Below, in pieces: positions 15,624 through 36,600 of a stretch of DNA of 64,000 nucleotides. The position numbers and the translations under genes are program-made. Source of the DNA: Sinohyriopsis cumingii (taxonomy: Eukaryota; Mollusca; Bivalvia; Unionida; Unionidae); NCBI GenBank assembly GCA_028554795.2, contig JAPYKE020000037.1, positions 3,722,501 to 3,786,500 on the forward strand. Reading direction: 5' to 3'. A model generated the notes under the pieces. It saw only the letters and a program-made list of their open reading frames with translations, made no database searches and was not told the DNA's origin. Every line of letters starts with the position of its first letter. Position 1 is the first letter of the stretch.

Positions 15624-18600
15624 TCATGCATTTCTATGATACCATGCATATATATGCCGACCGGATGTGTAAGAAGTAGATTCAAATATCTTGTCTTTAA
15701 TTCTTGAATCTGTACAACATTCGGGAAAGTGAAAACTTATAAATAAATAAAACATAGTCAGAATTAAATATGTCGCCAAGAACAAAGGAAAACAAAAAGT
15801 CAGGATCCATTTACGTTTCATTACCTCATGAGTAAATAATGATTCCCTCCAAGGATCAATGTGAAATGATGCTTCTTTCTTTATCAAAAAGTCGTTTGCA
15901 AATCCAAGTATCTGATCAAGAGCCAGAAGTACCAGGCTGTCGACCTTTTCGTTCAGACACACCTCAGTCTCATAGTTTTTGATGGGCCAGACATTATTTT
16001 GTGGCACGCCAAGTGTTCCAGATACATTTTCTACTGCCTTTTTGACCTTCGGACATTGAAAGACTTTGGACACGTCCTGATTAACAGCGTTAGACAGTGT
16101 GTCGATCTTTGTTAAGACGATAACCTTTGGAATTTCTGCAATTATGTTTGATATCATTTACTTCATCCCGTAACTCTCTATCTTTATACATATATATATA
16201 TATATATATATATATATATATATATATATATATATATATATATATATATATATATATATATATATATACCACATACTTATTAATATCTGTTTATGTATAA
16301 AAAAAAATTCTCGTGTATTTAAATGTTCCTTTTTTACCATTCTTTGTTATCATTTATATGAAGAACAAGTAATGTATTTCAAAGCAGTTAATTTGATGAC
16401 AAATATTTGGTTCAATCACATTTTTATATTAACAGAGATCGAATGTACAGTATTTTCAACGTCCTAACATTTGTATACGCTTGTTCCAATATAATGTCTA
16501 AAAGCATTTACATAAACATACTATTTGAGATCTAATCGACATCAAATTCTTCGTTAGAAACATATATATATATATATATATATATATATATATATATATA
16601 TATATATATATATATATATATATATATATATATATATATATATATATATATATATATATAGATATATATAGATATATATATATATATATATATATATATA
16701 TATATATATATATATATATATATATATATATATATATATATATATATATATATATATAATATTTTAAAGTTATCGCTATTATAACGCAACGAAAAATGTA
16801 TGTTTACCTTTTCTGTTGAGTCCAGTTTGAAACTGGTTGAGCTTGTTCCAAATTGTTTTGGAAACAACTTGCACCGTGCTTGCATCAAGTACGAATACAA
16901 CACAGTGGATCTGATCTTTCAGTCTTGGGTGGCTTATGAATCCACGGATGTCTCGATTGACAGGTGATAAAAAGTTGAACTATTGATTACGAAATGTAGA
17001 ATATGAATGGAAATTGTGTGTAACTGAAGGTGAAGGATGCATCATTGAATATATGTAGTAAGTACCAATACTCATTCTTTATCACTCTTAGACGTTATTT
17101 GTGTCTCTAAAAGTCCCTAAATATTCTAGAAGTAAAGAGTGTCATAACACTGAATACGACTAACATTTCATTTTTTTTTTCATCTATATAAGTAGTAAAT
17201 AGGGGCGATCTAGGGACAATGGGACTTACCATTCAAAACAGGGTCCCGGCACTCTGGGGACTATGTAAATTTAACATGGGAAATATTGTCGCGGCACTCT
17301 AGGGACAAGGGGAATTTAACATGTGAATAGAGTGTGGGTCTGTCTAGGGACAAGGGGAATGGAACATGCAACTATAGTTTGGGTCTGTCTAGGGACAAGG
17401 GGAATTTAACATGGAATTTTTTTTAAAAAAATAAAAAAATAAAAAAGGGTAGGCAATTGAAAGTCAATCTCTTTTCGAGAAATGTGGGTGGCCCTGAAAA
17501 GGGCCTTTGGGTTTCTTCTTCTTCTTCTCCTTCTTCTTCTTCTTCTTCTTCTTCTTCTAACTCCTCCACTTCTTTATCCATCCCCTTATTTTTTCCATGA
17601 TTCCTTTCTTCTTCTTCTTCTTTTCATTTCCGGTATCCAGTCCGGGTGACCCATGGCTCGGAACTTCTGTTGGATTTTTATCCAGTTAGCGTTCAGTTTC
17701 TCTAGTTCTTCCTTTTTCTTTCTATTTTCTTCTTCTTTTCTATCTTTTGCCCACCTGTCCTTTATTTTCTCCACTTCTTCATCTATCACCTTTCTCATCT
17801 TTTCTTCCCTTTTTTCAATCTTTCAACACTCCTTTTGACAAAGGGCCTCTCTGACCTTTTTTCTATCTCTTCCAAGAACCTTCTTAGTTCTTCTACCTTC
17901 TCCAGGGCCTCTTTTAATGTCCCCACTCTGACATAAGGGGGATTTATTAGCCCTCTCAGTCTCTTCACTTCTTCTTCAATTAATCCTTCTATCATCTCCC
18001 TGGCTAATTTTAGTTCGTTCACGTAGTGCACACTGGTTCTTAACCTCCAATCTCTTTCAATCTTTCCAACTCCATATTCACCATCCACCATCCAAAAATA
18101 AACATGCCTTAAATCACTGAACAGTGGGGACACTTCCATCTTCTTTTTTTTATTCCTTAGAATGGTGCGAACGACGAATACTGTGGGTTCTTATAGTGAA
18201 AGCGAGGACGTGATGGAAAACATCCAACTAAAACAAAATTGATCTTACCTAGATTATTACTTAAAACGCGCGTACGTGAAGGAAAACATCCCCTACTTTT
18301 CTCATTTCATATCATCTACTATTCACATACTCTAACCAACAATAAACTAACCCAAAATCTACCATCCACACACCCAAATCATTAAAATCAAATCCCAGTA
18401 ATCTACTATCCACACTAACCTATGCTAGCGATTATTAACACACAATCATATACATAAACTTATACACTCACACTAGCAAAAAGAGTCAGTGTTTATATTT
18501 ACACTACTCTACATTCACACATTGGCAAATCGATTACTATTTCTTTTCTAGAGTATTGGGTAGCCCTGAAAAGGGCTGTTTGTTTTTGAACTCCAGTGAC

Positions 18601-33600: not shown

Positions 33601-36600
33601 GAATGTATTTTCCGTCCTTAAAGTCTTTCCCTCAAAACAACAGAGGTCCGTGCACTTCTTGAGGGTGCACTTTCAAGGTGTAGAATGGAGCTAGGACATC
33701 TTGCAATGTTTGCATTTCAGGAATGCCGCAGGGTGTGTCTTTGGACAGGCCGGCTTGTTGTAACAGGAGTTCTGCTTCACTTCGTTGTTTGGCTCGGTTC
33801 GATTTTCGAATGTTCTCCCAGTCTCTTTTCCATTCTGCCGTGTCGTTCTTGTAGGCATAGGTTCGTTCCACCACGATGGCTTGGGCTAAACACATCTGGT
33901 CTTGAGAATTGTGAATTTTGACGAGACTCGTTTTGGTGCTGCGAAGGTCGTTAACCAATAAAACCTTATTGCGTTGTCCGGTCCCTTGAGGAGGAGAGAC
34001 GTGGGTCATGTCGAGTGTGGCTTTTCCATCGGTGATGTCAAACTGATCATTGGATTGTTGCACGTGTTGAATCTTGTCCATGACTTTGGAAGCGGTCAAT
34101 TCTGCAGGGGTGATAAACTCGATCCAAACAGGGGATTTCAAACCGTCGTGTTGTATGGAGAGTCTCAAGCGATCGTCTTCTTTGGGTTGACATTGTCGCT
34201 TGAGTGTGGTGAGCAAAGAATCCCACACCCCAGTGATGAACCCTTCTGCTTTCTCTAACGGTACTTCAGACTTGAAATCTTTAAACTTCACCGTGTACTT
34301 GTAAGCCGTGGTTCTAAATTTTCTAGAGGAGCGCTTTTCCGTCTCTCGAATGGAAAAGTACTTTTTAGGGTTGACTAAGGGTAGTGAACTTTGTTTAGAG
34401 GGTTCGGATTCTGGTTCACTCATGTCCTGTTCAAAATCACTGGCATGAATTTGTGCCAAGACTTCAGCCCTGGTACGAGGCGATAGATCACATTTCTCCC
34501 TCTTACTTTCTTCTTCTTTCTTCTCAAATGAATTGGATCGTTTCATCTTGAGTGAAAAATGTCAAATGACTCAAATTTAAACAGCATGGACTAATTTATA
34601 GTCATGGCAAACCAGCGTATATAAAAGGGTGTGTGTCTTGTCCTTTCACTATTCATTTCACTCTCTAACCGAGCACAACGATGGAAGAGACTACCCAGAT
34701 GGAACGTTTTATCAGAGCTTTGCGAGGGGTCATTAGAAAATTCTCTTCAGACTAGCCGACGGACTACTCTCCTTCCTTTCGAGATAAAAGTGAAGATACT
34801 TGCTATATCTGTCAGAAGAAAGGGCATTGGTCTTCAGAGTGTCCAGACCGTCAAAAAAGAAAAACAGGGGTTAAAAGAGACAAAAGTCAAGATACCTGTT
34901 ATTATTGTCAAGAAAAAGGACATTGGTCTCCAGATTGCCAAAAAAAAAAAAAAAGAAAGAAGAGGAGTCAGAAGAAAAGAGGGATTCTTCAGAAGAAGAG
35001 AGGGATTCTTCAGAGGAAGAAAGCAGCCAGGTGAAGAAAAGAAACAGGAGAAGAAAAGAAGAAAGGAAGAAAGTGAGGAGAAAGAGGAGGAGGAAAAGAC
35101 TGACGGTGAAGAAATTTAAAAAACAGAGAGAGTAAAAAAGAAACAGAAGAAGTGAATGTACTTTTTAAAGTGCTCTGTTGTGAATTGTGAATTTGGATTG
35201 TAACTATTGAGAAAAGAATAAATTAGGTATAAAAAAGGTAAGTGTCTTTGGGTTTTGATTTTAAAATAAGAACGTACACTCACGCACTCATATACACGTA
35301 CTATAGGGTAAAATGGTTATTTTTTTTTTAATTATTGGCAATTGAAAGTGTATCTCTTTTCGAGAAACGAGGGTGGCCCTGAAAAGGGCCTTTGGTTAAT
35401 GGTGTAGGGGTGAGTTTAAGCAATCAACTTTAACTGCCTTAAGCCTTTGCCACTTCCAAGGCCTACTTCTGGACTGCGTACTGTTGATGATGATGATGAT
35501 TGGGTTGAAATCACTAAGGGTGGTACGGTAGGCTTAGTCACAGGCTTGACGTGTTTAGCTCGGAAAGGTCGTATTCTCTTCGGTCGTAATAAAGAAGTCT
35601 GATACATTTGTTTCAGACTTCTTAACTCCGCTAAAATGTCCAACAGTACCGTGACCGTTTGATTTTCACCCTCTTGTTTCTTTGCTGCTACTTCTTGTTG
35701 TTGTTGTTTTTTTCTTACCTCTTCTTCTTGCTGCTGTTGCTGTAGGAGAAAAGCTTGTTCCGCTTCCTTTTGTCGTTGTATAAATTTCTCCAGTTCTTCT
35801 TTCTGTCTCTGTCTAAAATTCTCCACTTGCGGTAATGAAGAGGGAGACGAAGGTTCCGGAACAAATTCTTGCGAGGTAAGAAAATCCAGAAAATCCCAAT
35901 TTACCTCTTCTGAAAGTAAGTCCGGGTTCCCTTGGGTGGTCTCCACTACTGGTGCACCCCAGTTGATCGTTTTCTGAGTTTCCGTCATGTTGAAAAACTG
36001 TCGCATGGATTGACTACACACAGGCGCTAGCGAATCTATATTGACCACGTGACGTCACAGACTGCTCTCTTCGGATTGGACGTGGGCTTACTGAATTTTG
36101 TAACGCGTGTTTGGATTGGTCAATGAACTCAATCCGTTTCAATCCTTCCTCTACCTATAAATAAGCGCAGTTCACTGCATTGATTCACCTGTTCTCGGGG
36201 CCTCAAGATGTGGACCGATGTGCAATCTTCTACGCTTGTGTCTTCAATGATGTTCCGGACGGACATACCCATGTATGTCCGGTCCAAGGGGACAGTTGTC
36301 CACAGGCCAGACACCAGTCTGTGGATACGTAGGATCTACGTAGAAAGACAAGGATGCCTCAAAAGAGTCCTGATTTACGGTCCTACAGTGAGACGTAGCC
36401 TAAGGACAAGGAGAAGACCAATGCGGTGCCCTTTATGTTAATGGATACATTAACATAAACCCAAAGGCCCTTTTCAGGGCCACTCACATTTCTCGAAAAG
36501 AGATTGACTTTCAATTGCCTACCCTTTTTATCTTTTTATTTTTTTTAAAAAAATTCCATGTTAAATTCCCCTTGTCCCTAGACAGACACAAACTATAGTT

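Follow-up and report, generated by a model that had tools for sequence, protein, structure and literature searches.

The stretch analysed here, called the window throughout, comprises 64,000 nucleotides of the bivalve Sinohyriopsis cumingii (assembly GCA_028554795.2, contig JAPYKE020000037.1, positions 3,722,501 to 3,786,500 of the forward strand) and contains a Polinton/Maverick, a virus-like transposon. Within this element lie five short stem-loops (SL1 to SL5), each placed behind an accessory gene and followed by a purine-rich element, in an arrangement that resembles the 3′ ends of replication-dependent histone mRNAs. Judged from the sequence, these modules are likely to be working histone-type pre-mRNA 3′-end signals on the accessory genes of the Polinton. 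The modules and the open reading frames (ORFs) that precede them are given below in window coordinates, together with the bit scores obtained with the Rfam model Histone3.

17191-36824: Polinton/Maverick element with termini AGTAGT...ACTACT, delimited by its inverted repeats and edges and containing pPolB, ATPase, chromodomain and BIR ORFs
17468-17479, minus strand: purine element of SL1, CTCGAAAAGAGA, a putative U7 site
17490-17505, minus strand: SL1, GGCCCTTTTCAGGGCC, at the inner end of the left terminal inverted repeat (TIR); 41.8 bits
17586-18139, minus strand: accessory ORFs before SL1, two overlapping (17795-18139 and 17586-17798)
18541-18551, minus strand: purine element of SL2, CTAGAAAAGAA, with the core found in host H3, H4 and H2B
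18562-18577, minus strand: SL2, AGCCCTTTTCAGGGCT; 33.5 bits
18607-18903, minus strand: accessory ORF before SL2, 98 aa
19324-19334, minus strand: purine element of SL3, CTAGAAAAGAA
19345-19360, minus strand: SL3, AGCCCTTTTCAGGGCT; 26.3 bits
19388-19873, minus strand: accessory ORF before SL3, its likely start being the in-frame ATG at 19744-19742
35353-35364, minus strand: purine element of SL4, CTCGAAAAGAGA
35375-35390, minus strand: SL4, GGCCCTTTTCAGGGCC; 37.6 bits
35416-36006, minus strand: accessory gene before SL4, Q-rich, 196 aa
36208-36441, plus strand: accessory ORF before SL5, 77 aa, reading outward
36466-36481, plus strand: SL5, GGCCCTTTTCAGGGCC, at the inner end of the right TIR; 40.3 bits
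36492-36503, plus strand: purine element of SL5, CTCGAAAAGAGA

The 14-mer GCCCTTTTCAGGGC has exactly five matches in the window, all of them exact; by chance a mean of 0.16 is expected with up to two mismatches, and five were reached in none of 100 shuffles. All five sites are matched by Histone3 (RF00032), three of them above its curated cut-off of 34 bits. Among the other Rfam families, scanned over 15000-39000 at E ≤ 1, just a weak sbrA match was obtained (E 0.47, far under its cut-off), overlapping SL2 on the opposite strand. The places and strands that an initial annotation, made from the letters alone, had given for the stem-loops are thereby confirmed, as are the CCAAA and ACCCA flanks, the purine element behind each stem, and the sense orientation of every stem-loop relative to the ORF directly upstream. 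Its description of the stems as close to the stop codon holds for four of them (24, 25, 27 and 29 nt) but not for SL1 at 17490, which lies 80 nt away.

The same annotation spoke of five accessory transcription units. Five sites there are, but the signals are related copies, and the gene before SL1 turns out to be a pair of short overlapping ORFs. SL1 and SL5 are the two TIR copies of one signal, SL2 and SL3 sit in a 147-bp repeat that is 80% identical between its copies, and SL4 shares 93% identity with SL1 over 59 nt; the five are therefore not independent events and are perhaps copies of a single ancestral module rather than five inventions. Comparison of the two left units that arose by duplication shows strongly diverged ORFs, yet a stretch from the stem-loop onward that is still alike. 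Between the class A and class B stems there is one paired change, from GC to AU, leaving class B with A-U as its first pair.

For none of the accessory ORFs scanned did Pfam return a family above cut-off. For the protein of the SL4 gene, short public contigs yielded 19 relatives at 58-92% identity, and the SL5 ORF has two full-length relatives (79 and 81% identical over 77 aa). In other copies of the element, kin of the SL1 ORFs and of the SL2 ORF precede the equivalent stem-loops. In the window element, the outermost gene on each side reads outward into the TIR stem-loop. Upstream of the left accessory genes, the motif GGATGTTTTCC[AT]TCACGT is repeated on the minus strand at 18225, 18291, 18989 and 19834, followed by TATAA at 18225 and 18989 and by TTTAA at 19834; it is a possible shared promoter element.

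To compare these modules with genuine histone signals, the 2.9-Gb assembly that holds the window was used. A histone domain search of this genome gave 662 first-look candidates, and the histone genes were found to be arranged in tandem, each unit being about 8.3 kb long; one unit (locus L070) served as the reference. In this unit H3 and H4 carry the stem-loop GGCCCTTTTTAGGGCC, H2A carries GGCCCTTTTAAGGGCC, and H2B carries GGCCCTTTTCAGGGCC, the same 16-mer as in the Polinton. The distance from stop to stem is 28 nt for H3, 27 for H4, 34 for H2B and 35 for H2A. A fifth Histone3 match, GGTCCTTTTCAGGACC, lies 38 nt past a 198-aa ORF with 31% lysine that is probably H1. The host's signals receive between 35 and 39.4 bits. 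The purine core CTAGAAAAGA begins at nt 11 past the stem in H3, H4 and H2B, and likewise behind SL2 and SL3; the Polinton modules as a whole have CTAGAAAAGA or CTCGAAAAGA at a position matching that of the host histone genes. The start of AAAAG, counted from the stem, is nt 15 for H3, H4 and H2B of the host (H4 having an additional AAAAG at nt 4) and nt 16 for H2A and for the H1-like gene.

The modules thus share with replication-dependent histone 3′ ends (RF00032) the 6-bp stem, the UUUC loop, CCAAA- and ACCCA-like flanks, a stem lying close past the stop codon, and the purine-element spacing of host H3, H4 and H2B. They differ in that the genes concerned encode no recognised histone and lie on a virus-like transposon, in that one copy sits in each TIR, and in the A-U first pair of class B. 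They can also be told apart from host signals by sequence: the 59 stem-loops found by pattern in 30 histone loci are all GGCCCTTTTTAGGGCC, and none of the five L070 histone stem-loops matches the 21-mer formed by the Polinton stem-loop plus ACCCA.

That 21-mer occurs 13,559 times in the genome (6651 and 6908 places on the two strands; none for a reversed control), a figure that is an exact-match count made without inspecting the places one by one. Neighbouring 21-mers such as those at C1:350500 (minus) and C1:351590 (plus) reproduce the spacing of SL4 and SL5. A Histone3 search of the genome, in which 75 of 589,472 first-look candidates were scored and all 75 exceeded the cut-off, points the same way: the 55 matches read are all Polinton sequence, and the core-histone motifs searched were seen in none of them. 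That histone genes are missing here shows no more than that Polinton copies took the top ranks. By pattern, the 55 loci contain 102 stem-loops, with AAAAG at nt 15 in 98, at nt 16 in two and absent in two. When the stem-loops that had brought a locus into the sample are excluded, 47 remain, with AAAAG at nt 15 in 44, at nt 16 in two and absent in one.

A second sample was selected regardless of stem-loops. The best 82 of 33,280 candidates from a pPolB search were scored, and ranks 2, 12, ... 72 were taken, giving eight elements. These carry 16 stem-loops, 15 exact and one with a single change, with AAAAG at nt 15 in 15 of them and at nt 14 in the other. The search also uncovered a large Polinton expansion in the host genome, with at least 82 pPolB copies (the window's own included) of 94-100% identity and with long open frames in many of them.

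Related sequences were also sought in other collections. Three contigs in a GTDB-based collection encode a related pPolB (L003, L004 and L005). L003, 8.9 kb long and binned with a Bacteroidia metagenome-assembled genome, has a pPolB 40% identical to that of the window, and we interpret further ORFs on it as encoding a capsid protein, a chromodomain-bearing integrase and a protease. It contains a Histone3 match of 35.8 bits, whose stem lies 28 nt past the stop codon of a C2H2-like zinc-finger ORF, a terminal accessory gene, and is followed by AAAAG at nt 15; CCATTGTC repeats occur about 300 nt beyond the stem-loop, toward the contig end. This match is the only one among the 150 scored of 547 candidates in its 2.9-Mb bin. 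The presence of a histone-type device in so distant a Polinton suggests that the device is old. Absence of the stems from related elements had been named in the initial annotation as evidence that would tell against its proposal; they are present in all eight pPolB-chosen elements and in L003. In a collection of viral contigs no relatives of pPolB were found. Two contigs of that collection picked up by the stem-loop pattern, L001 and L002, were set aside, their ORFs looking phage-like and a Histone3 match being absent; a third pattern match was L006.

The identity of the host element itself rests on its gene content and its edges. Terminal repeats and 6-bp target duplications are hallmarks of Polintons, and the corresponding features of the window, with the polymerase segment used as query, are as follows.

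17185-17190: target-site duplication TATATA, left copy
17191-17510: left TIR, 320 bp, the homology between the arms ending at the 5′ flank of the stem-loop
30476-32056, minus strand: part of pPolB used as query, with PF03175 in its relatives
36461-36824: right TIR, 364 bp, with one 45-bp unit more than the left
36825-36830: target-site duplication TATATA, right copy

The TIRs are built with 45-bp tandem units, four on the left (17253-17432) and five on the right (36553-36789), inside which CCTTGTCCCTAGA motifs occur. The duplicated TATATA is modest evidence, because its surroundings are AT-rich. The element is called a Polinton because of its pPolB, an A32-type ATPase, a chromodomain ORF and a BIR ORF, although some frames are broken and pPolB in this copy is spread over several ORFs. 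PF03175 is present in the 120 pPolB relatives listed, one of which is named adintovirus PolB. The FtsK/A32-type ATPase ORF at 27385-28125 matches PF04665 above cut-off (E 6.3e-9), as the chromodomain ORF at 24250-24606 does its own Pfam family, and a BIR (inhibitor of apoptosis) ORF lies at 29808-30443 on the minus strand (PF00653, E 2.4e-22). No RVE integrase match was found in ORFs 24250-24606 and 24687-25031, a scan that covered part of the integrase pieces, and no capsid or cysteine protease match above the Pfam cut-off in the candidate ORFs 21810-22469, 21324-21650, 20078-20449 and 20386-20637. An excerpt of one account gives the Polinton set as 15-20 kb with pPolB, RVE integrase, FtsK-like ATPase and cysteine protease (PMC4028283). 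With Polintons/Mavericks and adintoviruses the window element shares a size of about 20 kb, TIRs, a 6-bp duplication, pPolB, the ATPase, the chromodomain ORF and the BIR ORF. It differs from them in the histone-type 3′ ends of its accessory genes: no description of such ends in Polintons, adintoviruses, transposons or viruses was found among the matches listed from the open-licence PubMed Central papers searched, and the annotation knew of none in Polintons.

How might such modules operate? Host SLBP would bind the stem-loop, the host U7 small nuclear ribonucleoprotein would pair with the GAAAAGA core, and CPSF73 would cut near the end of ACCCA, resulting in short, non-polyadenylated, histone-like mRNAs. 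The module in the TIR would end the outward-reading gene, and the remaining modules would be related copies behind internal accessory genes. Cutting by the SLBP/U7 pathway without polyadenylation is the most likely fate of these mRNAs, as far as their sequence can tell. The SLBP/U7 pathway works chiefly in S phase, so expression of the accessory genes would coincide with DNA replication in the cell, conditions that a DNA virus or a replicating transposon can exploit. We infer SLBP/U7 use, missing poly(A) tails and S-phase timing from signals whose sense position, spacing, likeness to host histone signals, copy number and occurrence in a distant Polinton are shown by the sequence. Both trans-acting factors are taken as present since the host histone genes carry the same signals. 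Assembly of the histone locus body is placed in S phase in an excerpt of PMC9756948.

Several observations weigh against functional 3′-end signals. Two of the five, SL2 (E 2.7e-6) and SL3 (E 0.0013), stay under the Histone3 cut-off, and the paired change between the stem classes is statistically weak, its score being reached by 37 of 500 shuffles. Among the three foreign Polinton contigs only L003 has a Histone3 match, so the scan proposed in the annotation succeeded there but gave nothing in L004 and L005; these two provide no test of the element end, because ORFs run into both ends of L004, and in L005, 3.6 kb long, no end was recognised. The pPolB-chosen sample speaks for close kin only, being drawn from the best 82 of 33,280 candidates, which apart from the window's own are 94-95% identical. 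Searches for the host factors were silent. No genome match to U7 (RF00066) exceeded the cut-off, three weak ones being obtained, and a PF15247 search gave no match for SLBP, the controls being silent too; introns may split the domain. A host U7 gene would be expected to show the Sm site AATTTGTCT with TCTTTTC upstream; the best RF00066 match, L067 (29.3 bits), was rejected as a U7 candidate for lack of a CUCUUUU 5′ end.

Conservation within close copies is a further difficulty. When windows of aligned copies are ranked by conservation, the one holding the stem-loop comes 102nd of 406 at SL4, 28th of 366 at SL2 and first of 356 at SL5. Across the pPolB-chosen elements SL4 shows no variation, a property shared by 113 other windows out of 1486. 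The window around SL5 scores 0.877, below 959 others, a low value that we put down to misalignment because seven of the eight copies are exact. Secondary sites are likewise mixed: nine of 15 are exact at SL4 (three have one change, one has two, and two, found with short anchors of 53 and 27 nt, are stemless), and eight of 12 at SL2 (two with one change and two with two). All four are exact at SL5 and one of two at SL1, the other resting on a 28-nt anchor; the SL3 DNA anchor gave no matches in this comparison. Stronger evidence than close-copy conservation is the keeping of register and sequence across different accessory genes, together with the paired change and the distant Polinton.

The remaining counterevidence lies downstream and bears on the alternatives. 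Scanning 500 nt past each stem-loop for AATAAA and ATTAAA, the two signals searched, we found ATTAAA 43 nt past SL4 and poly(A) signals 245 and 391 nt past SL3 and 408 nt past SL2; none occurs within this distance of SL1 or SL5. The accessory genes might thus be given either of two ends, a histone-type one in dividing cells and a polyadenylated one in others, in which case they would not be restricted to S phase. Dual ends of this kind are known for some histone genes, for example H2AC18, according to an excerpt of PMC9756948. The signals past SL2, SL3 and SL4 suit such an arrangement and their absence past SL1 and SL5 does not, and we regard it as rather unlikely. A division of the element into polyadenylated core genes and stem-loop-ended accessory genes was considered and is not claimed: the window has AATAAA 110 nt past the core cluster, but L072, the single other copy checked, has none within 400 nt.

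It is distinctly improbable that a single capture from a host histone gene gave rise to the modules and that duplication and amplification then carried them along unused, the real ends being the downstream poly(A) sites. The kinship of the five copies, the 16-mer shared with host H2B, the three sites with downstream signals and a close-copy conservation not clearly above that of neighbouring DNA would all fit such passive carriage. It accounts poorly for a stem-to-purine register that is the same from copy to copy and behind different accessory genes (98 of 102), for the class B paired change and a module that stayed while the ORFs diverged, for the similarly placed module of the distant Polinton, and for the missing AATAAA and ATTAAA behind SL1 and SL5. 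That the palindrome acts in DNA (as TIR structure, replication start or stop, or cruciform), its likeness to histone signals being incidental, is very improbable: two copies do lie at the inner TIR border, but three internal ones follow stop codons in sense, and the asymmetric flanks and the purine element are kept in transcript sense, with a Histone3 match over 46 positions.

Working histone-type signals on non-histone Polinton genes, as the annotation proposed, are therefore favoured by the Histone3 matches, the host H3/H4/H2B spacing, the many copies and the distant Polinton. More speculatively, and with somewhat more doubt than belief, we propose that an animal Polinton/adintovirus lineage runs its accessory genes on the host histone 3′-end pathway, switched with host DNA replication, and that amplification has made the element, and not the histones, the main genomic carrier of the signal, perhaps drawing on the SLBP and U7 that histones need. 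To our knowledge, 3′ ends of the histone type are considered a peculiarity of replication-dependent histone genes. Some viral RNAs with non-poly(A) ends (the snRNA-type ends of herpesvirus HSUR small nuclear RNAs, the triple helix of PAN) also use a non-standard host or structural route to end an RNA; those RNAs are non-coding or otherwise protected, whereas the window genes are apparently protein-coding. If correct, this would be a natural case of an S-phase expression switch moved as a small 3′ cassette on a mobile virus-like element. It would offer a testable idea of how Polinton accessory genes are timed to the cell cycle, with thousands of natural signal variants in one genome, and the accessory mRNAs, if they lack poly(A), would be missed by poly(A)-selected RNA sequencing.

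Two further features were noticed in and around the element. Between pPolB and the SL4 gene, a degraded zinc-knuckle-like gene, read by eye, lies on the plus strand at about 34670-35130, with AATAAA at 35217. Directly outside the element, a long (TA)n-rich repeat occupies 16110-16790.

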